Part shown: piece by piece, positions 43,912 to 61,845 of the stretch
Position numbering within the stretch: the first letter of the stretch is position 1
Layout: each line of letters opens with the position of its first letter
NCBI GenBank assembly: GCA_902362775.1
Contig: CABIXV010000007.1
Location: forward strand, 1-64,000
Length of the DNA: 64,000 nucleotides
DNA from: Clostridiales bacterium
GTDB lineage: Bacteria; Bacillota; Clostridia; Oscillospirales; Oscillospiraceae
Reading direction: 5' to 3'
Position numbers and translations under genes: made by a program
The notes under the pieces: model-generated
Database searches by the model: none
Told to the model about the DNA's origin: nothing
The model's input: only the letters and a program-made list of their open reading frames with translations

Positions 43912-46794
43912 TCAATTCACAGTCAAGTAGTCAGCGGACACATAGCCGATGGCGGCCTGTCCGGCCCGGTTGAGATAGAGGACCTGATACCACCCGGCCT
44001 CCTGGCCCAGAATTACCACACAGGTCCCGTTGTCCAGCCCGCCGATGACGGGCCGGTCGGAGCCTGGGCCAGAGCGGACGTTAAGACCCAGCTCCGCGTC
44101 AGTGACCGTGCCGGTCTGGGCGGCCTGCTGGCAGAGAACGGTACATCTGGCGGACAGGCCGTTCCAGCTGGCCGTGATGGTGACAGAGGCGGTGCCTGTC
44201 CCAGTGTAAAGGTTGGTCACCGCGCCTTTGGAGGAGACAGGAGCGGCGGAGGGATCGCTGCTGGTCCAGGAGATCTCCGCTCCCTCCCAGGCCGGGGCGA
44301 GGGAGGCAGTGAGCGGGACGCTCTCACCGGACTTTAGAGTGACCTCGTTGTGGTCCAGGGTCAGCGTATACTGGCTGGGGTCGGGGAGCTGGGGCTCTAT
44401 GGGCTCCTCAGGATCGACGGGGCCCTCTGGGTCCACCGGCTCCTCAGGCTCCACGGGATCTACCGGCTCCTCCGGGCCGGTGGGCACATCCTGAATGGGG
44501 GTGTAGGTGAGGGCCTTATAGAGTAGGGCGGCCATCTCGGCACGGGTCAGATAGCCCTGGGGATCGATGCCGTCGCCCTTGCCGCTGATCACGCCCTGGG
44601 CGACCAGAGTGGCGGTATGTCCCTTGGCGTAGTCGGCGATCCGGTCACGGTCGGCGAACTGGTCCAGAACAGACAAGCTGGCGTCTGGGCAGTCCTTGCC
44701 CAGCAGAGGAAGGACCTGGCGCAAGATGGTAAAAGCCTGCTCCCGGGTAATGGGGGCGCCTGGAGAATAGGCGCCGTCCCCGGTGCCGGAGGCTAGGCCT
44801 ACGCTCTGGCCCCAGGACAGGGCGGTATAGTAGTAATCAGTGGGAGCTACATCGGTGAAGGTGCAGTCCTGGGTGACGGCAGGCTTGCCCATGGCATTGT
44901 ACAGCATCAGCATGAAATCGCCTCGGCGGATCTGGAGGTCACGGCCAAACTCAGTAGCGGAGATGCCGCCCACGATGCCGTGGGTGTAGCAGTAATCCAC
45001 GGCGGTATAGGCCCAGTGGTCCTCCGTCACATCGGTATGGACATTGGTCATGGAAATTGCGATGGTCTGGGTCTTTCCGCCAGCAGAGGCGGTGATGGAG
45101 CCGGTGCCCCCAGTCTTGGAGGCGGTGAACAGACCGTTCTCATCCACGGTCCCCACGTCCCCCTCTGTGGTCCAGGTGACGGCGGTCCAGTCCCGGAGGG
45201 CGGTGCGGCCCCAGTAGCTGCCGGTGACGGCCAGTTGGACCTGTTCTCCAGGCTCAACAGACAGAGAAGTGATGGGAGAGGCGCTGCCCTCCTTGGAAAT
45301 GACCAGTTCAGTCAGGTGGTCCACCACATGGATCTGGGCCTCTCCCTCTACATCCAGGTCCCTGGAGCGCAGACGGAGGGTGTCGGTGCCGGCCCTGTCG
45401 CCGGCGGTGTATATCCCGTCCTCTACTTCGCCCAGGTCCTCCCTGGAGGTGATGGTCAGGTCACGGAGCTCTCGGTCCAGAAGGTTCAGCCCTTCGTCCA
45501 GCACAGCGGCATCCGGCAGGGTGAGGGAGGTGCCCGTCAGAAGGGTGAGGCCGTTTTGCGTCAGGGCCAGCCTGCCCGGCCGGCCGTCCCCCTCCTGGTC
45601 TGTGACCAGCAGCAGATAGGTGGCGCAGCTTCGGGGCTTGCCGTCAGAGGGCAGGTTGAGAACAGCGGGCCCCGTTTGTCCCGGCAGCCAGAGGGAGATG
45701 GCGGTGGAGCCGCCCCCATCCAGATTGACGGCCCAGACGTAGCCCCGCCGGATCATCTCCTCCGCCAGATCCTTCTGGGACAGGCCGGAGGAGTAGCCGG
45801 ACTGGCGGCCATCCACGGCGTAGACCAGCAGAGTGCCGTCCTCCTTCATGCCCAGGGCGGTCCTGGGCTGACGGCCGTCCTTGGCATAGGTCCACTGGGA
45901 TGAGTCGGTAAGCTGGCCGTCCCACACCATAATGTCCCCCACACCTCCGGCCCACTGGGCATGAGATAGGGCCTCGTCCTCGCAGGAGGTGGTCAGGGTG
46001 ATCCGGTCGCCCACCTGGAAGGACTGAAAGACGGACAGATAGCCGGAGGCATCGGCGGCGGTAAGGATGTACTCCCCATCGCCAATGGCGAGAGGCTGGT
46101 CAGACTGGAGCAGCTCCGTCACCTCCAGCTCCAGGGTGCTATTGACCGTGAGGGGCTCGTCCTCCTCCATCAGAGCCATCCGTACATACCAGCCGGGGGT
46201 GGAGGTACGGGTGGACACAGCGGAGAAGTCCTGGTTGAGCAGGTAGATGCCCCCTGACTCGCTGCGCCATTTGTTCAGGTGGGAGGGCTTCACCGTGCTG
46301 TTGTCCCGCTGGTTGACCAGAGTGAGGGATACCGACGGCCCATCTACCAGGGAGACTTGACCATCGGTGATGATCATGGCGTCCTCGTGCTCCGGGCTGG
46401 ACTTGTAGACACCGTCCTCGATGACGATGCCGATGGGCACGCCGGAGGCGGTGGAGAAGAAGTCGGTGTTTACCGCGCCTAGTACGTGGTAACCCAGCTC
46501 CTGGGCATAGGTGACAGCTCGGTTGATGGTGGCGGCGCCGTAAACAGTGCCAGCAGCCTGAAGCAGGATGGGGTAGGCGTCGCTGTCCTTCTCCAGCTCC
46601 AGGGAAAAGCTCTCCACCCGGCGCTCGCTGTTGTCGGTGATGGTGTTGCGGTAAGTCAGACCATCCACCAGGTCGATGGAGGTCTGCAGCTTCTGTTCCC
46701 CAGCGTGGGCATAGACGGTGGGGAGGGCCAGCGCCAGGGCTAGGACCAGGGCGGCCGCCCGGCGGGATAGGGATCTGACGGTATGTTTTTTCAT
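43912..46794 (-). CDS. SLH-anchored phosphodiester glycosidase (NAGPA-like) with Big2 and SH3b domains
   Basis: The 960-aa protein has a signal peptide (1-29), a phosphodiester glycosidase/NAGPA (DUF2233) domain (about 80-400: LGAVNTDFFSTASGVPIGIV, ALGMKEDGTLLVYAVDGRQ, WAVNLDGGGSTAISLW), an Ig-like region (about 490-620), three SLH repeats (about 620-775), a Pro/Glu/Val/Asp repeat linker (about 778-812), a Big2-type domain (about 815-890) and a C-terminal SH3b domain (GLNVRSGPGSDRPVIGG). NAGPA domains remove terminal sugar phosphodiesters. It would be anchored to pyruvylated wall polymer made by the divergent cluster. Strong own promoter. Confidence 0.9.
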   Translation of the reverse strand: MKKHTVRSLSRRAAALVLALALALPTVYAHAGEQKLQTSIDLVDGLTYRNTITDNSERRVESFSLELEKDSDAYPILLQAAGTVYGAATINRAVTYAQELGYHVLGAVNTDFFSTASGVPIGIVIEDGVYKSSPEHEDAMIITDGQVSLVDGPSVSLTLVNQRDNSTVKPSHLNKWRSESGGIYLLNQDFSAVSTRTSTPGWYVRMALMEEDEPLTVNSTLELEVTELLQSDQPLAIGDGEYILTAADASGYLSVFQSFQVGDRITLTTSCEDEALSHAQWAGGVGDIMVWDGQLTDSSQWTYAKDGRQPRTALGMKEDGTLLVYAVDGRQSGYSSGLSQKDLAEEMIRRGYVWAVNLDGGGSTAISLWLPGQTGPAVLNLPSDGKPRSCATYLLLVTDQEGDGRPGRLALTQNGLTLLTGTSLTLPDAAVLDEGLNLLDRELRDLTITSREDLGEVEDGIYTAGDRAGTDTLRLRSRDLDVEGEAQIHVVDHLTELVISKEGSASPITSLSVEPGEQVQLAVTGSYWGRTALRDWTAVTWTTEGDVGTVDENGLFTASKTGGTGSITASAGGKTQTIAISMTNVHTDVTEDHWAYTAVDYCYTHGIVGGISATEFGRDLQIRRGDFMLMLYNAMGKPAVTQDCTFTDVAPTDYYYTALSWGQSVGLASGTGDGAYSPGAPITREQAFTILRQVLPLLGKDCPDASLSVLDQFADRDRIADYAKGHTATLVAQGVISGKGDGIDPQGYLTRAEMAALLYKALTYTPIQDVPTGPEEPVDPVEPEEPVDPEGPVDPEEPIEPQLPDPSQYTLTLDHNEVTLKSGESVPLTASLAPAWEGAEISWTSSDPSAAPVSSKGAVTNLYTGTGTASVTITASWNGLSARCTVLCQQAAQTGTVTDAELGLNVRSGPGSDRPVIGGLDNGTCVVILGQEAGWYQVLYLNRAGQAAIGYVSADYLTVN

Positions 46795-46997: not shown

Positions 46998-48557
46998 TTG
47001 GAGGATCGGCACAGCGCCACAAGGACGATCAGCGCCGTCATGGCCATCACTCTGCTGGGAAAAGTGATGGGACTGTACCGGGACCACCTGCTGGCCGTGC
47101 ATTACGGTATGGGTATGGAGGCCAACGCCTTCTATACTGCCAGCCGCATCCCACGGGTATTCTTTGACGCGGTATTCGCCTCGGCTATCGCCGCTTGCTT
47201 TATCCCGGTGTTCAGCGAGTATCTGGAACAGAAGGGAAAGAAGGAGGCCTACCGCTTCGCGGGTTGCTTTATTACCATCATCGCCCTGCTCACCGGCGTT
47301 CTTACCTTGGCGGGGATGGCCTTTCCCCAGCCGTTGGTGGCCCTCTTTGCCGACTATGAGGACCCACAGACTACGGCCTTGGCAATTTCTTTGACTAGGA
47401 CCATGTTTCCCACGGTTCTGTTTTCCGGCGTGGCCTTCTCCTTGGTCGGAGTGCTCCAGGCCCAGGACCACTTCACCGCCCCCGCCCTCATGTCCGCCCT
47501 GTCCAACCTGGTTATTATCGCCTACTTTCTGTTTCTGGACCAGTCTATGGGCATCTATGGTCTGGCGCTGGCCTATCTGTTGGGCTGGTTCCTCCAGGGG
47601 CTGATCCAGGTCCCGCCGCTTAGGCGGCTGGGCTACCAGTATCGGCCGGGATTGGACTTCCGGTCTCCGGGGATGAAAAAGGTGTTTGCGCTGATGGGGC
47701 CGGTGATGGTGTCCACCTGGGTCCAGCCCATCAATCTGGTCATCAATTCCCGATTCGGTTCCCGGCTATACGGGGGGGCGGGTGTGTCCGCTATGGAGTA
47801 TTCCACCAACCTGTATCTGGTTATTGCCGGTACCTTTATCCTGTCGATCACCAATGTGATCTTCCCTAAGCTGTCCCGGCTCACCGCCGGCGGACAGCAG
47901 GGGGATTTCCGGGATACCCTCCGCCAGACCGTCCACAGCAGTTTGTTTTTCGTACTGCCCATGGCCGCAGGGCTGATGGCGGTAGCCAGACCCCTGGTGT
48001 CCTTCCTCTACGGAGGGGGGGAGTTTGGGCAGCGGGCAGTGGAAGTCACCGCCAGCGCCCTGTCCTGGATATCCCTGGGCATGGCGGGCTATGCGCTTCA
48101 GAATATTCTAAGCCGGGCCTACTTCGCTCGGCAGCAGGGGAGAGGGCCCCTGGTAGCGGGCACCCTGTCCATCGGGGTGAATCTCCTGCTGTGCATGGCC
48201 CTGGTCGGCCCGCTGGAGGTCCGGGGGCTGGCCATCGCCTCCGCGGTCTCCTCCACGGTGTACGCACTGCTGCTGATCGTTCCCATGGAGCGGGAAGGTC
48301 AGGGATTCCTGGACCGGGCCCTGTGCCTGGACTTCTTCAAAATGCTGGCTTCCGCCGCGGTTACGGGGCTGACCGCTTGGCTGCTTTTGGGATGGCTTGG
48401 ATCGGTCCTGCCTGCCGGAAAGATGGGGGAGCTGCTCTCCCTGGCCCTGTGCGCCGGAGGCGGCGTGGCCGTCTATTTCGGCGTTACCCTGTCCATGGGC
48501 ATGGAGGAGGCCGCCATGACGGCGGCCCTGATCAAACGTCTATTAAAGAGAGGATAA
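46998..48557 (+). CDS. murJ: MurJ/MviN-type lipid flippase (TTG start)
   Basis: The 519-aa membrane protein has about 14 helices and the MurJ family marks: GLYRDHLLAVHYGMGMEANAF near the start, SRIPRVFFDAVFASAIAACFIP, and the ALSWISLGMAGYALQNILSRAYFARQ segment. MurJ flips lipid II; MOP-family relatives flip other undecaprenyl-linked glycans. Its place at the head of a wall-polysaccharide operon leaves both options open. It uses TTG at 46998 after CGGAGGAAG; no ATG lies near. Confidence 0.88.
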   Translation: MEDRHSATRTISAVMAITLLGKVMGLYRDHLLAVHYGMGMEANAFYTASRIPRVFFDAVFASAIAACFIPVFSEYLEQKGKKEAYRFAGCFITIIALLTGVLTLAGMAFPQPLVALFADYEDPQTTALAISLTRTMFPTVLFSGVAFSLVGVLQAQDHFTAPALMSALSNLVIIAYFLFLDQSMGIYGLALAYLLGWFLQGLIQVPPLRRLGYQYRPGLDFRSPGMKKVFALMGPVMVSTWVQPINLVINSRFGSRLYGGAGVSAMEYSTNLYLVIAGTFILSITNVIFPKLSRLTAGGQQGDFRDTLRQTVHSSLFFVLPMAAGLMAVARPLVSFLYGGGEFGQRAVEVTASALSWISLGMAGYALQNILSRAYFARQQGRGPLVAGTLSIGVNLLLCMALVGPLEVRGLAIASAVSSTVYALLLIVPMEREGQGFLDRALCLDFFKMLASAAVTGLTAWLLLGWLGSVLPAGKMGELLSLALCAGGGVAVYFGVTLSMGMEEAAMTAALIKRLLKRG

Positions 48558-48560
48558 GGG

Positions 48561-50021
48561 ATGGAACAGATGAAGCAAGTGTTGTCCGCCAGCCTGGTCT
48601 GGCGGTGGCTGACGGCGGTATGCCTGTGGTTTAGCCGCCAATGGGAGCGGAGCGGACTGGTCCAGTGGTTCCTCCACCCGGCGGGGTGGAACAGAGCCTC
48701 GTCCGAGCGGAGCGTCTTTTTCAAGCTCTGGTCCCTGGTGCGGAGGGGCCTGTGCTGGCTCTATGATAAGCTGAGGCTGGAAAAGCTCTTTGCCGGGAGC
48801 ATCTTTACCAGAACCTGGCTGTGGTGCGCGATCCCGGTGGTGCTGGCCCCGATGCTGGCCGTGTCCCGCCCCTCTCTGATAACCATGGGGCTGGCGGCCA
48901 TCGGCTATGCCTCTCTGCTGCTCAATTTGGTCCGGGACAGGGAGCGTCAGTTGGCCTGGTCCCCAGTCAACAAGTATATCATCCTCTACGCCGGCGTTTA
49001 TCTGGCGGGCACTCTTTTCTCGGTGGACCTTGAGAGCAGCCTTCAGCCCGGCCTGCTGTCGGTGGCCTTCATTCTGTTCTCTATCGTGCTGTACAACGGG
49101 GTGACCAACCGAAACCAGTTGGACACGCTGGTGGCCCTGATGGTGCTGGCTGGGGCCATCGTGTCCGCTTACGGCATCCTCCAGTATATCTTCCGCTGGG
49201 GCTACCAGTCCGCCGCCTGGGTGGACAGCGATATGTTCTCCAGCATCCAGTTCCGGGTGCCCTCCACTTTGGAGAATCCCAATATGCTGGGGCAGTATCT
49301 GATCCTGCTTATCCCACTGGGGGGAGCCAAGCTGCTGGGGGCCAAGGACTGGCTGAACCGGGTCTTTTACCTCGCCTGCTGCTCTGTCATGTGCGTTTGC
49401 ATGATCCTCACCTTCTCCAGAGGGGCCTGGCTGGGGCTCCTGTTTGCGGGGCTGGTCTTTGTCCTGCTCCTCAATCCCAGACTGCTCCTGCTGGCCCCCT
49501 TTGTCATGGTAGCCCTCTATTTCGTCCTACCGGATACGGTGATCTCCCGGTTTACCAGTATCGGAAACCTCACTGATAACTCCACCTCCTACCGGGTGTA
49601 TATCTGGATAGGTGTACTGGCCATGCTGAAGGATTACTGGCTGTGTGGTATTGGGCCGGGGGACGGGGCCTTCAACATGGTCTATCCCGCTTACAGCTAT
49701 AACACCATTGTGGCCCCCCACTCCCATAACCTATTCCTCCAGATGGTGTGCGACGCGGGTATCTGTGCCCTGGTGGTCTTTCTTCTGCTGCTGTTCAACT
49801 TCTTCCGGGATATGTGCTCTGCCATCGGCAAGGAAAAGAACTGGACCAGCCGGGTTCTTCAAATCGGCATTACGGCCGGAGTATGCGGCTTTATGGTCCA
49901 GGCCATGACGGATTACTCCTTCTATAACTACCGAGTCATGTTCCTGTTTTGGGCCTATCTGGCCCTGGGCGGTCTGGCTGCCCGGCGGGGGCAGCTCCCG
50001 GAGGGGAGGCTGCTGGTATGA
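48561..50021 (+). CDS. O-antigen ligase/polymerase family (WaaL/Wzy-like) membrane protein
   Basis: The 486-aa protein has about 12 helices with a Wzy_C-type centre: PSTLENPNMLGQYLILLIPLGG, FSRGAWLGLLFAGLVF, and the large external loop with PAYSYNTIVAPHSHNLFLQMVCDAG holding the conserved His pair. Such enzymes polymerise or ligate glycan repeat units at the outer face of the membrane. It starts 3 bases after murJ and overlaps the following glycosyltransferase (ATGA). Confidence 0.87.
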   Translation: MEQMKQVLSASLVWRWLTAVCLWFSRQWERSGLVQWFLHPAGWNRASSERSVFFKLWSLVRRGLCWLYDKLRLEKLFAGSIFTRTWLWCAIPVVLAPMLAVSRPSLITMGLAAIGYASLLLNLVRDRERQLAWSPVNKYIILYAGVYLAGTLFSVDLESSLQPGLLSVAFILFSIVLYNGVTNRNQLDTLVALMVLAGAIVSAYGILQYIFRWGYQSAAWVDSDMFSSIQFRVPSTLENPNMLGQYLILLIPLGGAKLLGAKDWLNRVFYLACCSVMCVCMILTFSRGAWLGLLFAGLVFVLLLNPRLLLLAPFVMVALYFVLPDTVISRFTSIGNLTDNSTSYRVYIWIGVLAMLKDYWLCGIGPGDGAFNMVYPAYSYNTIVAPHSHNLFLQMVCDAGICALVVFLLLLFNFFRDMCSAIGKEKNWTSRVLQIGITAGVCGFMVQAMTDYSFYNYRVMFLFWAYLALGGLAARRGQLPEGRLLV

Positions 50022-51151
50022 TCCGTGTGCTGAACATCATCAGTGATACCAATATCGGCGGGGCGGGCCGGGTCATCCTGAACTATTTGAGCTATGCCGA
50101 CCGCTCCCAATATGAAACGATAGTGGCCATCCCCAGGGGAAGCTTGCTAAAGGAGCCCTTGGAACAGGCGGGTGCCCAGGTCTACGAGGTGGACGGCATG
50201 GCGGACCGCTCTTACCACAGGGACGATGTGAAGGTGCTCAAAGAGCTGATCAGGCGGATCAAGCCCGATCTGGTCCACACCCATGGGGCCCTGTCGGGCC
50301 GCATCGCCGCCAAGGGCCTCCATGTACCTGTGGTGTACAGCCGGCACTCTGCCTTCCCGGTCCCGGCCAAGATAAAGTATCCGCCCGGCCGTTGGGTCAA
50401 CAAGCTGGTCAACGAGCACTTTGCCGACCATATCATCGCCGTCAGCCCGGCTACCCGGGACAACCTGACCGAGGGGGGGATTTCCCCCAAAAAGATCACC
50501 GTGGTGATGAACGGCGTGGCCCCGGTGGAGGAGACCGGGCCAGAGGACCGCGCCAAGCTCCGGCAGGCGCTTTCCATCCCTCCGGACACGGTGGTATTCG
50601 GCATCCTGGCCCGGATCGAGGACTATAAGGGCCACCTGTATTTGGTTCACGCCGCAAAGCTGTTAAAGGAGCAAGGGCGCAGCGGCTTCCGGGTCCTCAT
50701 CGCCGGTACTGGCTCCTTTGAGGAAGATGTGGCCCGGGCTGTGGTGGAGATGGGCGTGGAAGACGTGGTCCAGATGCTGGGCTTCCGCGCCGACGTGGCC
50801 GCCCTGCTGAATATCCTGGACGTGCAGCTCAACGCCTCCTACGGCACCGAGGCCACCAGCCTGGCCCTGCTGGAGGGGATGAGCCTGGGCCTGCCTACCA
50901 TTGCCAGCGACTACGGGGGAAACCCCTGGCTGGTGACCGATGGGGAGAACGGCCTGCTATTTCCAAGCCGAGACAGCCAGAGCATGGCCAAGGCCATGGC
51001 CTATCTGATGGATAGGCCGGAGGAGCGCCGGGAGATGGGCCGTCAGGCCAGAGAGCGGTTCCAAACCAGCTTTACCGGTCAGGTGTTTGCCAAAAATATT
51101 GAGAACGTCTACCAAGGCGTGCTGAAAGGAGATCCTCATGGAAGAAAATAA
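50018..51151 (+). CDS. Glycosyltransferase family 4 protein
   Basis: The 377-aa GT-B enzyme begins IRVLNIISDTNIGGAGRVIL, has the nucleotide-sugar region FGILARIEDYKGHLYLVHAA and the acidic E-x7-E motif NASYGTEATSLALLEGMSLGLP. It transfers a sugar from a nucleotide donor, probably to the lipid-linked polymer precursor. Start at 50018 overlaps the ligase stop. Confidence 0.9.
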   Translation: MIRVLNIISDTNIGGAGRVILNYLSYADRSQYETIVAIPRGSLLKEPLEQAGAQVYEVDGMADRSYHRDDVKVLKELIRRIKPDLVHTHGALSGRIAAKGLHVPVVYSRHSAFPVPAKIKYPPGRWVNKLVNEHFADHIIAVSPATRDNLTEGGISPKKITVVMNGVAPVEETGPEDRAKLRQALSIPPDTVVFGILARIEDYKGHLYLVHAAKLLKEQGRSGFRVLIAGTGSFEEDVARAVVEMGVEDVVQMLGFRADVAALLNILDVQLNASYGTEATSLALLEGMSLGLPTIASDYGGNPWLVTDGENGLLFPSRDSQSMAKAMAYLMDRPEERREMGRQARERFQTSFTGQVFAKNIENVYQGVLKGDPHGRK

Positions 51152-51644
51152 GTACAAATTCCGTCTGCGGCTCAATCTGTTTGATGGCATCATTTTGGTG
51201 GTGGCCCTGGCGGTGGCCGCGGTCCTGCTGTGGATGGCCGTAAAGCCCCAGGCCGTTTCCAACGAGTCGTCAACTGCCGCCGCTACGGTCCGGTACACTA
51301 TCCGCTTTCAGCGATGGATCGAAGGGACCGGCTCCATCATTCAGCCGGGGGACAAGCTGGTAGACAACATCAAGAACAACGAACTGGGCCAGGTGGTGTC
51401 CACCCAGGCGGTCCCCGCCCAGACACAGCTTCTGGACCAGGAGAGCCACAGCTATGTACTGGCCGCCGTGCCGGGCTATGAGGATATCCTTGTAACGGTA
51501 GAGGCCCCCTGTACAGTCAGCGAGGAGGCGGTCATCCTGGGCAGCAATTTCCAACTGCTGGTGGGGTCCACCGCCTATATCCGGGGCGAGGGCTATATGG
51601 CCAGCGGCCCCATTATCTCCATTGAACGGGAGGGACAGGAATGA
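51138..51644 (+). CDS. DUF4330-like membrane protein (first of pair)
   Basis: The 168-aa protein has a short cytoplasmic start, one membrane helix (about 14-34: DGIILVVALAVAAVLLWMAV) and an outer domain with beta-rich pattern (VRYTIRFQRWIEGTGSIIQP, GEGYMASGPIISIE). It resembles DUF4330 proteins of clostridia. Function unknown. Overlaps the end of the glycosyltransferase (14 bases) and the start of the next gene, so it belongs tightly to this operon. Confidence 0.75.
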   Translation: MEENKYKFRLRLNLFDGIILVVALAVAAVLLWMAVKPQAVSNESSTAAATVRYTIRFQRWIEGTGSIIQPGDKLVDNIKNNELGQVVSTQAVPAQTQLLDQESHSYVLAAVPGYEDILVTVEAPCTVSEEAVILGSNFQLLVGSTAYIRGEGYMASGPIISIEREGQE

Positions 51645-52135
51645 AGCTCATTGACCGGGAGGGCCGGCTGTTCGGCAAGATCAGTATTATCGACGTGCTG
51701 GTCCTGGCCGTCGTTATCGTGATGGCTGTGGCCCTGTATGTAAAGACGAATCACCGTGAGATCACCAGCACCACCACCTCGGACACCCCCTTTACTTACC
51801 AGATCCTGGTCAGCGGGGTCCGGGGCTATGTGGCCGACGCCATCCGGGAGAAGGACATGCTGTATGACGTGGACAACAGCAGCGGCGGTGCCCTGGGAGA
51901 AATCACTGACATTCAGGTGATGGAGGGGGCCAAGCTGGCCGAATATGACGACGGCACCATGGAGATGACTCCCGTGGAGGACGGCGTCAACCTGCTGCTT
52001 ACCGTAGAGGGCAGGGGCATCATCAGCGACGGCCGCTATCTAGTCAACCGGGTGTACGACCTTGGTGTCAACTCCGCCCGCAACTACCACACGCCCTATG
52101 CCCAGTTCACCGGAACAGTGGTAGCCATCGATTGA
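51641..52135 (+). CDS. DUF4330 family membrane protein (second of pair)
   Basis: The 164-aa protein starts KLIDREGRLFGKISIIDVLV, the DUF4330 signature, followed by one membrane helix and an extracytoplasmic domain (TYQILVSGVRGYVADAI, VNLLLTVEGRGIISDGRYLV). Topology matches the preceding gene, suggesting a heterodimer. Family function is unknown; DUF4330 genes recur beside csaB-like genes, as here. Confidence 0.82.
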   Translation: MKLIDREGRLFGKISIIDVLVLAVVIVMAVALYVKTNHREITSTTTSDTPFTYQILVSGVRGYVADAIREKDMLYDVDNSSGGALGEITDIQVMEGAKLAEYDDGTMEMTPVEDGVNLLLTVEGRGIISDGRYLVNRVYDLGVNSARNYHTPYAQFTGTVVAID

Positions 52136-52160: not shown

Positions 52161-54374
52161 ATGAAGATCCTCATGGCCACCATGGGCATGAACATAGGTG
52201 GGGCGGAGACACATATCCTGGAGCTGTCCAAGGAGCTGAAGCACCAGGGGCACGATGTTATCATCGTATCCAATGGAGGTGTCTATGTGCCGGAGATCGA
52301 GGCGGCCGGCATCCGCCACTACCAGGCGCCCATGCACCGCCGGGGCTTTCGGGAGATGCGCCGTTCCCGGACCATTCTCCGTGACATCATTAGCAGGGAG
52401 AGGCCGGACGTGGTCCATGCCCATGCCCGGATCCCGGCGTTCCTGTGCGGCAGCCTGCAAAAACGGATGGGGTTCCCCTTTGTGACCACTGCTCACTGGG
52501 TCTTTGATACCAGCGGCATCCTGCGCTATCTGACCAACTGGGGCCAGCGGACCGTGGCGGTGTCCGAGGATATCAAGGAGTACCTGATCCGGGAGTACGG
52601 TCTGCCCCCGGAGCATATCTCTGTGACCATCAACGGCATCGATACAGAGAAGTTCTCCCCCGCTGTTTCGGGGGAGCGGGTCATCCGGGAGTTCAGGCTG
52701 GACGCCTCCCGGCCCATCCTCTCTTATGTCAGCCGGATGGATGCCGACCGGGCTCTGGTGGCCCGGCAGCTCATCCAGATCGCTCCGGAGCTGGATCGGG
52801 CTATCCCCGGCATCCAGCTGCTCATCGCCGGGGGCGGCAACGTCTTTGACGAGCTGAAGGCGCTGGCCAATCAGACCAACCAAAGGCTGGGCCGCAACTG
52901 TATTACCATGACAGGCCCCCGGACAGACATCAACGAGATCGTGGCCGCCGGCGACCTTTTTGTGGGGGTATCCCGGGCGGCGCTGGAGGCCATGTCCGCC
53001 GCCAAGCCTGTCATCGTGGCGGGCAACGAGGGTTATCACGGCCTGTTTGGCCCGGACAAGCTGACCGAGGCACAGGCGGGCAACTTCTGCTGCCGAGGCC
53101 TGCCTGTGTCGAGACCGGAGACCTTGCTGGCCGACGTGTCTGCGGCGTTCTCCCTGACGTGGGAGGAGCGGGAGCGGTTGGGGGCCTATGGCCGCCAGGT
53201 CATCTTTGACCACTATTCCGTCCGCCGCATGGCCAGCGACTGTCTAACCATGTATGAGCAGGTCCGCCGCCGGAAATATCGGGTAGTTATGAGCGGCTAC
53301 TACGGCTTTTCCAACGCTGGGGACGACGCTATTTTGGAGTCCATCCAGCAGGCCATCCATGAGGCCAGCGACGAGGTGGCCGTCACCGTCCTGTCCAATG
53401 ACCCGGACCTGACCCGGCGGCAGTACGGGCTGGATGCCATTCCCAGATTTCGAATGTGGCGGGTATTCTCCGCTCTGCGCCGCAGTGACGCCCTGCTGTC
53501 CGGGGGAGGAAGTCTGCTCCAGGACACCACCTCCACCCGGTCCCTGTTTTACTATCTATCTGTCATCCGCTGCGCCGAGCTGCTGGGCAAGCCGGTGATG
53601 CTGTACGCCAACGGTATCGGTCCGGTCCATAAGCCGGCCAACCGCCGGAGGGTGAAGCGGGTGGTGGAGCGGGCCGCCCTGGTCACCCTAAGAGACCACA
53701 GCTCCGCCAGGGAGTTGCGGGACATGGGCGTGACGCGGGACGATATCAGAGTTACCGCCGACCCGGTGTTCCACCTGGCTCCTGCGGGGGAGGCGCGGTG
53801 CGCCCAGCTTCTGTCCGGCACCGGCATTCCAAACGGCAGGACTTTTGTGGCGGTGTCCGTCCGTGGCTGGCCCGGTACGGGAGAGTTTCCCAGGGAGCTG
53901 GCCCGGCTGTGCGACCACCTGCACCAGGCCCATGGTCTGGAGATGCTCTTTTTGCTCATGCAGCCCGATAAGGACCGGGAGGCCACCCGGCAGGTGAGAG
54001 AGCGGATGAGCACTCCCTCCTATGTGCTGGATGCCCCCTGTACCCCACGGGAGCTGATGGGGGTGCTGGGGAAGGCGAAGCTCTGTCTGGCCATGCGCCT
54101 GCACACCCTGATCTTCGCCGCCCGGATGGCGGTACCTTCCATGGGACTGGTCTACGACCCCAAGGTGGACAGCTACCTGCGGGAGCTGGACCTGCCGGCG
54201 GCCGGAAATGTAGACCAATTTGACGGAGGAGAGGCCATCCGCCGGGCGGACCAGATGCTGGCCGACTACGACGGGGTACTGTACCGGCTGAAGATACGAT
54301 CCGGGGAGCTGGCACAAGAGGCCAGAGAGAATGAGCGGCTGCTGCTGAAGCTGCTGGAAGAGAGTAAGCGGTAA
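52161..54374 (+). CDS. Fusion: glycosyltransferase (GT4) + CsaB-type polysaccharide pyruvyl transferase
   Basis: The 737-aa protein joins two full enzymes. Residues 1 to about 372 form a GT-B glycosyltransferase (KILMATMGMNIGGAETHILE; PDVVHAHARIPAF; AAGDLFVGVSRAALEAMSA). Residues about 374-737 are CsaB-like (VVMSGYYGFSNAGDDAILES, DALLSGGGSLLQD, ANGIGPV, VTLRDHSSARELRDMGV, AMRLHTLIFAARM). CsaB adds a ketal pyruvate to secondary wall polysaccharide, the group that SLH domains bind. Usual CsaB is a stand-alone protein of about 370 aa. It ends the murJ operon and is followed by a terminator. Confidence 0.9.
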   Translation: MKILMATMGMNIGGAETHILELSKELKHQGHDVIIVSNGGVYVPEIEAAGIRHYQAPMHRRGFREMRRSRTILRDIISRERPDVVHAHARIPAFLCGSLQKRMGFPFVTTAHWVFDTSGILRYLTNWGQRTVAVSEDIKEYLIREYGLPPEHISVTINGIDTEKFSPAVSGERVIREFRLDASRPILSYVSRMDADRALVARQLIQIAPELDRAIPGIQLLIAGGGNVFDELKALANQTNQRLGRNCITMTGPRTDINEIVAAGDLFVGVSRAALEAMSAAKPVIVAGNEGYHGLFGPDKLTEAQAGNFCCRGLPVSRPETLLADVSAAFSLTWEERERLGAYGRQVIFDHYSVRRMASDCLTMYEQVRRRKYRVVMSGYYGFSNAGDDAILESIQQAIHEASDEVAVTVLSNDPDLTRRQYGLDAIPRFRMWRVFSALRRSDALLSGGGSLLQDTTSTRSLFYYLSVIRCAELLGKPVMLYANGIGPVHKPANRRRVKRVVERAALVTLRDHSSARELRDMGVTRDDIRVTADPVFHLAPAGEARCAQLLSGTGIPNGRTFVAVSVRGWPGTGEFPRELARLCDHLHQAHGLEMLFLLMQPDKDREATRQVRERMSTPSYVLDAPCTPRELMGVLGKAKLCLAMRLHTLIFAARMAVPSMGLVYDPKVDSYLRELDLPAAGNVDQFDGGEAIRRADQMLADYDGVLYRLKIRSGELAQEARENERLLLKLLEESKR

Positions 54375-59628: not shown

Positions 59629-61845
59629 TTAGAACTTGTCGTACAGGGCGCGAATCAGGATGATGGCCTCCTCCACGGTGGTGTTGGCCACAGGAGCGAC
59701 GCCGTCGCCCTTGCCGCTCATCAGACCATTATTGGTCAGCTTGGCCACAGCGGGCTTGGCCCAGTCGGCAATCTGGTCCACATCGTTGAACCGGCTGGCA
59801 TCCACCTGGGTGCTGGTGTCGGTCAGGGTGGTAGAGTCATTGGCCTGGTCCACATACTCAATGACCTTGTTCAGCATGACACAGATCTCCTGGCGGGTGA
59901 TCTTATCGCTGGGGGCGAAGATACCCTCGCCCTTGCCGGAGGTGACGCCAGCGGCCACAGCCTTCAGTACCATGGGATCGCTGGTGTCGGTGAAGGACTG
60001 GGTAGAGGGGGTGATCTCCTTGCCGGTGGCCTCTTCAATCAGGTTGACAGCCAGCTCGGCAAACTGCAGGCGGGTGATCTGGTCCTGATACAGGCCCTCG
60101 GTGCGGTCGGTGATTAGCTTCTTGTCCTTGGCGTCGGCGATGAGCTCGGCAGCCCAGGCGGAGGGCTGTTGTGTGCCGGGCGTGGGGTCGGCAGGCTGGG
60201 TGGAGGTGCCGGGTACATTCAGGGTGTAGGTCTTGCTGGAGCGGGAGAACTGGCCGCCGCTGGCCTCTGCCTTGACGGTGTGGCTGCCGCCGCCCAGAGC
60301 GGCCAGGTCGAGCTCATAGTAGTAAGGGGCCTGGGTGCTGGTGTGGACCAGCTTATCGTCCACATAGTATTTGACTGTGTTGGTCTTCTTGCCGGGGAAG
60401 CTGACATAGGAGGCCAGCTTCAGTGTGCTGTCGCCAGCGGAAAGGGCGGTCTTGTCCAGCGTTTCCCAGCCGGTGGCGGAGCCGTCCACCTCATCCAGAT
60501 AGGCGCCGTTGTTGCGGATGGCGTTCTGATAGGTGGAGGACACGGAGGAATTGCCGTTGAGCATATACTTAAATCCGCTGTCGGGGTCGGCGTTGAAGTA
60601 GAACACAGCCTTTACCTGGGGATAGACCATGTTGATATAGGAATAGAACCAGTTAAGCTGCTCCACGGCGAAGGAGGTCAGGTCGGTGCCGGAGCTGTTG
60701 CGATAGGCAAAGCCGCACTCGCTGACCATAACGGGCTTGTTGTGGGACACGGCCAGGTCGATGATAGGCTTGATGGTGACCATGGGGTCATGGTCATAGA
60801 TGCCAAGGCCGTAGTAGGCGTCATTGCCGTAGCCGGTATAGTCAAAGCTGTAAGAGGAGGTGCCGCTGTAACCGGCATAGTTGGTGTTGTGATAGGTGGA
60901 CATACCGACCCAATCCACATACTGGTCTCCGGGATAGAAATCGGCAATGGTCCGGTTCCGGTTGCTGATATTGTCCGGGGAGAAAACCATCTGGATGTTG
61001 CTGTACCGGCTGGCGGCGTCGGCCACCTTGCGGAAGGCCTGGATATAGGTAGCGGGGTCACAGTCGGACCAGTTGTTCATCTCGGCGCCCACCCGGAGCA
61101 AGACAGTGGCATCCAAGCTGCCCAGAGCCCGTAAGCTTTCCTCAATATAGCTGTCAGCGGACAGAACGGCCTGGGCTCCGGCGGTGCCCTCAGGGCTGAA
61201 GTTCCAGGCAAACTCGATGACGCCGCCGTTTGCCGCCTCCCGGAAAGCGGGCGAGCAGTCCATGTAGTAGTCGATCCAGTAGTCCACAGAGTAGCTGTCA
61301 CCGAAGGTGACATAGATCAGAGAGGCGGAGCCGCCGGTGGTGGAGCTGTCCGCCGGGGTGCCATACCAAGTCCCGGTCTTGGGGCCTACCGCATAGGGGG
61401 AGGCGCTGTCGTCGCTCTGGGCGTAGATGGTGACATTCTGGGCGGCTTTCAGGTAAGCCATCCGAGCGTCCACGTTGAGCAAGGTATCCTTGTAACTGCG
61501 AATGTTCTGGTCCAGCCAGCTGGCAAAGGTGCGCTGCCGTTCCAGCCACAGGATAGCGCCATCGATGTCGCCCTTCATCTCACAGGCCCAGGAGGCCCGG
61601 CCAGCCTTGGGCTCTAGGTTGTAGCACACATCCTCGCCCAGGCCCAGGGGCATCAGCAGGTCATAAGTCTGCTGGGCTACGGAGATGACTTGTTCAGGGC
61701 TCTTGGCAGCCACAGCCTCATCCCAGGCGGAATGGAGCTTCCAATAGGCGGAAGGGTAGGTGAAGGCAGAGGCGGTGAAGCACATGCCCGTCACCATGAC
61801 TGCCGCCAGAGCGGCGGACAGCAGTCTGCGCATGTTTTTTTTCAT
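59629..61845 (-). CDS. SLH-anchored GH26-like glycoside hydrolase
   Basis: The 738-aa protein has a signal peptide (about 1-27), an N-terminal helical region (about 28-130), a GH26-like barrel (about 150-455) with a probable acid/base Glu in LLRVGAEMNNWSDCD (about 255) and nucleophile Glu in VMVSECGFAYRN (about 374), an Ig-like domain (about 465-545) and three C-terminal SLH repeats (about 565-738, each with 'F-x-D' and 'R-x-E' patterns such as LQFAELAVNLIEEAT and TRQEICVMLNKVIE). GH26 enzymes cut mannans or related polymers. Surface-anchored to pyruvylated wall polymer. Own promoter. Confidence 0.85.
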   Translation of the reverse strand: MKKNMRRLLSAALAAVMVTGMCFTASAFTYPSAYWKLHSAWDEAVAAKSPEQVISVAQQTYDLLMPLGLGEDVCYNLEPKAGRASWACEMKGDIDGAILWLERQRTFASWLDQNIRSYKDTLLNVDARMAYLKAAQNVTIYAQSDDSASPYAVGPKTGTWYGTPADSSTTGGSASLIYVTFGDSYSVDYWIDYYMDCSPAFREAANGGVIEFAWNFSPEGTAGAQAVLSADSYIEESLRALGSLDATVLLRVGAEMNNWSDCDPATYIQAFRKVADAASRYSNIQMVFSPDNISNRNRTIADFYPGDQYVDWVGMSTYHNTNYAGYSGTSSYSFDYTGYGNDAYYGLGIYDHDPMVTIKPIIDLAVSHNKPVMVSECGFAYRNSSGTDLTSFAVEQLNWFYSYINMVYPQVKAVFYFNADPDSGFKYMLNGNSSVSSTYQNAIRNNGAYLDEVDGSATGWETLDKTALSAGDSTLKLASYVSFPGKKTNTVKYYVDDKLVHTSTQAPYYYELDLAALGGGSHTVKAEASGGQFSRSSKTYTLNVPGTSTQPADPTPGTQQPSAWAAELIADAKDKKLITDRTEGLYQDQITRLQFAELAVNLIEEATGKEITPSTQSFTDTSDPMVLKAVAAGVTSGKGEGIFAPSDKITRQEICVMLNKVIEYVDQANDSTTLTDTSTQVDASRFNDVDQIADWAKPAVAKLTNNGLMSGKGDGVAPVANTTVEEAIILIRALYDKF

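Follow-up and report, generated by a model that had tools for sequence, protein, structure and literature searches.

The gene at 52161..54374 of the window (the whole 64,000-nt stretch of DNA that was analysed) encodes a glycosyltransferase (GT) joined to a CsaB-type ketal-pyruvyltransferase in one polypeptide of 737 amino acids. This fusion is real, conserved, and ordinary within its own family, and GT-CsaB fusions are common, not rare, in Clostridia. The parts of the gene are given below, gtA and gtB being our own labels for the two GT4 subfamilies found fused to CsaB.

52161..54374, + strand: gtA-CsaB fusion gene, 737 aa (ORF, Pfam, NCBIfam, relatives)
52161..53276, + strand: N-terminal glycosyltransferase half, residues 1-372, GT-B fold, GT4 clan, subfamily gtA
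53277..54371, + strand: C-terminal CsaB ketal-pyruvyltransferase half, residues 373-737, second GT-B fold (Pfam, TIGR03609, predicted structure)

The frame runs from ATG to stop without an internal stop, and the two halves abut without a linker. The window protein (P0001) matched six Pfam families at E ≤ 0.001, each above its cut-off. Glyco_transf_4 lies at residues 12-164 (124 bits), Glycos_transf_1 at 179-346 (35 bits, cut-off 26.4), and PS_pyruv_trans at 385-667 (149 bits, cut-off 25.3). The NCBIfam family TIGR03609 (CsaB) was matched at 374-685 with 280.4 bits, above the equivalog cut-off of 213.1. The domain search of each half called for by an earlier sequence-only reading of this DNA therefore recovered GT4-clan domains together with a GT-B fold in the first half and CsaB in the second. 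The predicted structure of the CsaB half (model m8e4492e8928a) had a mean pLDDT of 92.4 and a pTM of 0.91, and the full-length model had a pTM of 0.67, at which the placement of the two domains relative to each other is uncertain. Pvg1p (5ax7) was not among the best 50 fold matches listed for the CsaB half, which is no evidence of a difference between the two.

A read error joining two ORFs was ruled out. One stop-free frame spanning more than 90% of the query is kept in 77 of 80 related loci on genome contigs, so the fusion is neither a read error nor a product of chance, and its existence as a single 737-aa protein with two complete domains, as claimed by the earlier reading, is confirmed. 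Two of the other three loci (L035 and L079) have a frame that ends at the contig end, and in the third, L072 of Candidatus Avimonoglobus, the same frame is divided between two neighbouring genes by a stop and a new start with a ribosome-site-like stretch. Free CsaB may also arise from an internal start at M377; no clear Shine-Dalgarno sequence was seen in the DNA ahead of its ATG, and the residue is Met in 58 of 78 aligned fusions.

Two glycosyltransferase subfamilies fused to CsaB in Clostridia

A protein database search with the window protein returned 3936 proteins at E ≤ 0.001 among 7997 scored, the best 120 of which are 719-746 aa in length. Among these 120 matches listed, 119 have 71-81% identity and one has 99%; P0002, a 737-aa protein 99% identical to the window protein, comes from three contigs, possibly including the window's own. 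Five of the 120 carry a source name, in every case 'polysaccharide pyruvyl transferase CsaB', and among such entries, which are about 735 aa long and come from Oscillospiraceae, Lawsonibacter, and Pseudoflavonifractor, the window protein is unremarkable. Related loci occur in Flavonifractor, Pseudoflavonifractor, Flintibacter, Lawsonibacter, Sporobacter, Anaerotignum, Chakrabartyella, and Ructibacterium.

A profile built from 32 fusions and run on 118 genomes of the class Clostridia was matched in 95 of them. A full GT-CsaB fusion was present in 40 of the 118, comprising 21 gtA fusions (full profile match in one open frame with no stops) and 19 gtB fusions (read from the DNA). The statement of the sequence-only reading that CsaB normally stands alone is thus wrong for Clostridia, although the characterised enzymes, that of P. 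alvei in the passages on it, are stand-alone. Beyond the 21 full gtA fusions, two are cut (G440 and G507). Stops were found inside the fusion match in three genomes, namely G429, which has a gene pair, G415, and G464; the latter two, as well as G461 (787-aa frame) and G438 (659-aa frame), are outside both fusion counts. In all 12 fusion genomes searched for PF04230, the fusion is the sole protein of that family. No gtA-half match below 1e-10 was found within about 1.4 kb on either side of the 30 top-scoring stand-alone CsaB loci of the phylum.

The gtB fusions came to light as another group of long frames that match the fusion profile across the CsaB half alone. All 19 loci of this group whose DNA was read (L145-L163; 740-814 aa) carry an N-terminal gtB domain fused to CsaB. 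The gtB domains score 47-90 bits against the gtA profile and 560-600 bits against the gtB profile (three fusions). The order of domains is the same as in the gtA fusions, with the GT4-clan domain N-terminal and CsaB C-terminal, but the GT belongs to a different GT4 subfamily, in which both Glu residues of the EX7E motif are kept (20 of 20 gtB sequences, one unfused copy among them), while gtA lacks the first. Unfused adjacent pairs, GT followed by CsaB, were found at nine gtA loci and one gtB locus; eight of these ten pairs are in different frames, and the genes of those eight are therefore truly separate. The functional coupling of GT and CsaB that had been proposed from the window is supported by both the fusions and these gene pairs, and with two GT subfamilies. 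At one locus (L172), gtA, gtB, and CsaB are each separate, and gtA and gtB can therefore coexist. Some gtA fusions (L074, the same gene as L096 and L138, and L142-L144) have linkers of 26-28 residues against about 0 in the others, which is in line with separate fusion events.

Trees were built from the CsaB halves (79 of 106 rows, with 27 near-copies and long branches, including L184, L163, L172, and L115, taken out) and from the gtA halves (43 of 48 rows). The CsaB-half tree needs 5 changes for gtA fusions, 5 to 6 for gtB fusions, 8 to 9 for fused versus unfused, and 5 for GT partner type, where the lower counts omit L164, a locus labelled 'alone' that reaches the end of its contig and is possibly a truncated fusion. 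In AU tests on the CsaB halves, a single clade was rejected for gtA fusions (p 6.4e-8), for gtB fusions (p 0.001), for all gtA-partnered CsaB (p 1.5e-5), and for all gtB-partnered CsaB (p 1.6e-4); on the gtA halves, a single clade of gtA fusions was likewise rejected (p 4.6e-4). The phylogeny suggested beforehand thus speaks against one undivided clade of fusions, which both sets of halves rule out for the gtA fusions.

One group of CsaB halves (support 94/86, inner forks weaker) mixes L140, L166, L167, L169, and L170, which lie beside unfused gtA, with L145 and L146, which are fused to gtB. The presence of both partner types in one group suggests partner exchange. As the trees are unrooted, they do not tell fusions from later splits, and one old fusion followed by several splits would likewise break the clade. 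Two GT subfamilies nevertheless require either no fewer than two joinings or an exchange of domains, and the GT domain of a fusion already in place may have been swapped. As part of the explanation that we favour overall, CsaB probably came to be joined to both GT4 subfamilies, and neighbouring genes fused or split on further occasions in the tree.

The polymer cluster and its DUF4330 genes

The fusion gene of the window lies in a cluster with the conserved order MurJ-Wzy-GT4up-DUF4330-DUF4330-gtA-CsaB, and genes for two SLH-domain proteins are found in the same window.

43912..46794, - strand: SLH-domain protein, 3 SLH + NAGPA (phosphodiester-glycosidase-like), presumed client of the pyruvylated polymer
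46998..48557, + strand: MurJ/Wzx-like flippase (PF03023, 296 bits)
48561..50021, + strand: O-antigen ligase/polymerase-like (Wzy_C) membrane protein (PF04932, 84 bits)
49949..51151, + strand: separate GT4 gene (GT4up), E-x7-E readable (gtB profile 168 bits, gtA profile 71 bits)
51138..51644, + strand: DUF4330 protein a (PF14221, 67.8 bits)
51641..52135, + strand: DUF4330 protein b, directly upstream of the fusion (PF14221, 94 bits)
59629..61845, - strand: SLH-domain protein, 2 SLH, GH26-like, presumed client of the pyruvylated polymer

The MurJ-family flippase, standing in a polymer cluster, is probably a Wzx-type exporter rather than a protein with a lipid II role. Most labelled clusters have GT4up, a relative of gtB, placed after the Wzy-like gene and ahead of the two DUF4330 genes. 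All 12 fusion genomes searched encode SLH domains, versus 3 of 20 Clostridia genomes without a fusion-profile match, and with the two SLH proteins of the window this bears out the SLH context that had been assigned to CsaB. These 20 control genomes were drawn from the 23 (of 118) that lack a profile match, and G154 among them matches TIGR03609 weakly (6.6e-12).

DUF4330 genes track gtA and gtB. The nearest labelled upstream gene is DUF4330 in 70 of 80 gtA-CsaB loci, the window included; among the other ten, L079 has no upstream sequence and L068 has only about 950 bases. PF14221 (DUF4330) was above its cut-off in 51 of 52 genomes with gtA or gtB (including G423, G458, and G468, where the GT does not adjoin CsaB), in 6 of 45 genomes with stand-alone CsaB (a seventh was below the cut-off), and in none of the 20 genomes without a fusion-profile match. 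Four of the six stand-alone-CsaB genomes with DUF4330 contain a free gtB (G428, G491, G038, and G471), which is absent from G360 and G386. The number of copies differs with the GT: at least two in 30 of 31 gtA genomes and one in 18 of 21 gtB-only genomes (Fisher p 5e-10, from a post hoc test that ignores kinship). No mention of DUF4330 was found in the literature searched, a collection with most subscription journals outside its coverage. Its company with gtA and gtB links this uncharacterised family to SLH-type surface display.

A proposed role in secondary cell wall polymer synthesis

PMC10435577 tested or docked the following residues of P. alvei CsaB: Y13, Y14, F16, R66, S88, T94, R148, R207, R306, H308, and K328. 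Mapped by motif and spacing rather than by alignment to the P. alvei sequence, the first six of these correspond to Y380, Y381, F383, R429, S451, and T457 of the fusion, and the last five to R511, R568, R646, H648, and K668. Y380, R429, T457, R511, R568, R646, H648, and K668 are present in 78 of 78 aligned fusions, Y381 in 76, F383 in 73, and S451 in 75. Together with the equivalog-level TIGR03609 match, which is the likeness of this half to P. alvei CsaB, these residues uphold the full CsaB domain of the sequence-only reading. From the family match and the kept PEP-site residues, the CsaB half is predicted to be a working ketal-pyruvyltransferase.

The one reconstituted pathway is that of P. 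alvei (PMC6030368), in which a GT26 enzyme, TagA, adds ManNAc to GlcNAc-PP-lipid in vitro and CsaB pyruvylates the TagA-added ManNAc at the lipid-linked stage, on ManNAc-GlcNAc-PP-lipid. There, csaB is a single gene beside tagA and tagO, whereas the CsaB of the window carries a GT at its N-terminus. TagA (PF03808) is a separate gene in 50 of 52 gtA/gtB genomes (12 of 12 plus 38 of 40) and occurs in 6 of 20 genomes without a fusion-profile match. Given that gtA/gtB genomes encode TagA separately, the simplest reading of the fused GT is that of a second transferase, for another sugar of the repeat, although the presence of TagA does not prove that it serves the fusion polymer.

We therefore think it fairly probable that the fusion unites two enzymes for the synthesis of a secondary cell wall polymer (SCWP), in which CsaB pyruvylates the ManNAc placed by TagA, and gtA adds a neighbouring sugar. 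The separate TagA would place ManNAc on the lipid-linked repeat, and the CsaB half, with PEP as its pyruvate donor, would pyruvylate this ManNAc at the 4,6 position. The gtA half, as an active but atypical GT4-clan enzyme, would add a neighbouring sugar of the same repeat, its acceptor most likely being the pyruvylated disaccharide, onto which the next sugar would go. Export by the MurJ/Wzx-like flippase of the cluster and then polymerisation by the Wzy-like protein would follow, and the fusion would keep two consecutive steps on one membrane-bound intermediate. Both activities, the acceptor, and the order of steps are inferred. The order is modelled on one organism with a stand-alone CsaB, and action of gtA after pyruvylation is preferred because, in the P. 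alvei text, CsaB accepts the TagA product directly.

The sequence-only reading had instead proposed that the sugar pyruvylated by CsaB is the one just added by the fused GT, the SLH epitope thereby being assured by the fusion. It would be natural for two enzymes that act one after the other on a single sugar to be fused, and the GT is N-terminal to CsaB in 40 of 40 fusions. On the other hand, in the P. alvei text (PMC6030368) the pyruvylated ManNAc is the one added by TagA, and this known ManNAc transferase is separately encoded in nearly all the gtA/gtB genomes. In 11 of 80 gtA loci it is the labelled gene that comes next, and in 9 of 19 gtB loci it lies within the locus. PF03808 (the TagA / GT26 family) is absent from the Pfam matches of P0001 at E ≤ 0.001. 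In addition, one shared acceptor sugar would not predict that two quite different GT4 enzymes are fused to CsaB. The fused GT is thus probably not the enzyme that adds the pyruvylated sugar, and the one-sugar proposal, which these data do not favour, is a live option but the less likely one, to which we give a low probability.

In retaining GT4 enzymes, EX7E consists of two Glu residues eight positions apart.

52962..52988, + strand: residues 268-276 (VGVSRAALE), place of EX7E; E276 kept, first Glu absent

No E-x7-E is present in residues 1-372 of the window protein, and in 78 of 78 gtA fusions position 268 is V, I, A, or L and never Glu. The loop is 6-7 residues shorter than in 2jjm and 7mi0 in alignments, and in these two respects gtA differs from the retaining GT4 enzymes BshA, MshA, PimA, HepE, and PglA. 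The Lys usual in the GT4 donor site is absent as well. As gtA lacks both this Lys and the first EX7E Glu, its catalytic activity is putative. The 'full GT4-like enzyme' of the sequence-only reading therefore stands as regards the complete GT4-clan domains but not as regards the motif, and of the missing catalytic residues it had named as refuting, none is lost from the CsaB half, while the GT half is without one throughout.

The loss of the first Glu and its loop could mean that the GT half has no catalytic activity and that its GT-B fold, by binding a partner or the lipid-linked acceptor, only provides a scaffold for CsaB, and the same motif without the first Glu in 72 of 72 relatives of the GT half (those of 355-400 aa among the 120 matches listed, some perhaps truncated fusions) fits such a role. 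Nevertheless, E276, H112, and R192 are invariant in 78 of 78 gtA fusions, as are G-rich and other pocket positions, and in 2603 of 3003 pairs of the 78 rows the GT half is the better conserved of the two. This conservation speaks against a pseudo-GT half, as do the free-standing gtA genes (L172 and L173) and the gtB domains in the same place, which keep EX7E. We regard the scaffold as improbable and retain the second transferase.

It is very improbable that pyruvylation caps the chain, with the fused GT making the capping unit or competing with the cap and so setting chain length or epitope exposure, since, although the P. alvei SLH domain binds terminal but not internal Pyr-ManNAc in solution (text of PMC6081394) and addition of the Klebsiella pyruvyltransferase WbbZ shortened the polymer in vitro, which its authors read as premature termination (text of PMC10629545), PMC6030368 describes the P. 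alvei polymer as made up of disaccharide repeats that bear pyruvate, not as one capped only at its end.

Given the terminal binding of Pyr-ManNAc described in PMC6081394, extension by the fused GT as second transferase would change the exposure of the epitope. A bolder and rather doubtful extension is that CsaB acts as a hub and has captured the GT4 encoded in its locus on repeated occasions, that the fused GT extends pyruvylated ManNAc so that one protein both makes the SLH epitope and decides whether it is terminal, where SLH proteins would grip it, or internal, and that DUF4330 is a dedicated, undescribed membrane component, with one copy accompanying gtB and two accompanying gtA. Should a second GT be tied to CsaB in many gut Clostridia, the wall polymer repeat of these bacteria may differ from those studied, and the repeat made by a given locus would be told from its GT partner.

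A GT-CsaB fusion was not described in the titles or abstract openings of the best-ranked literature matches, a search with most subscription journals outside its coverage. The 'CsaB' database entries and the pyruvyltransferases that CAZy lists in GT4 are not called fusions in the passages on them. The latter are putative enzymes of Clostridium stercorarium and C. thermosuccinogenes (text of PMC6801904), whose GT4 listing is as expected of a GT4-CsaB fusion, a state that we infer for them, and such a fusion would explain why pyruvyltransferases are filed among GT4 enzymes.
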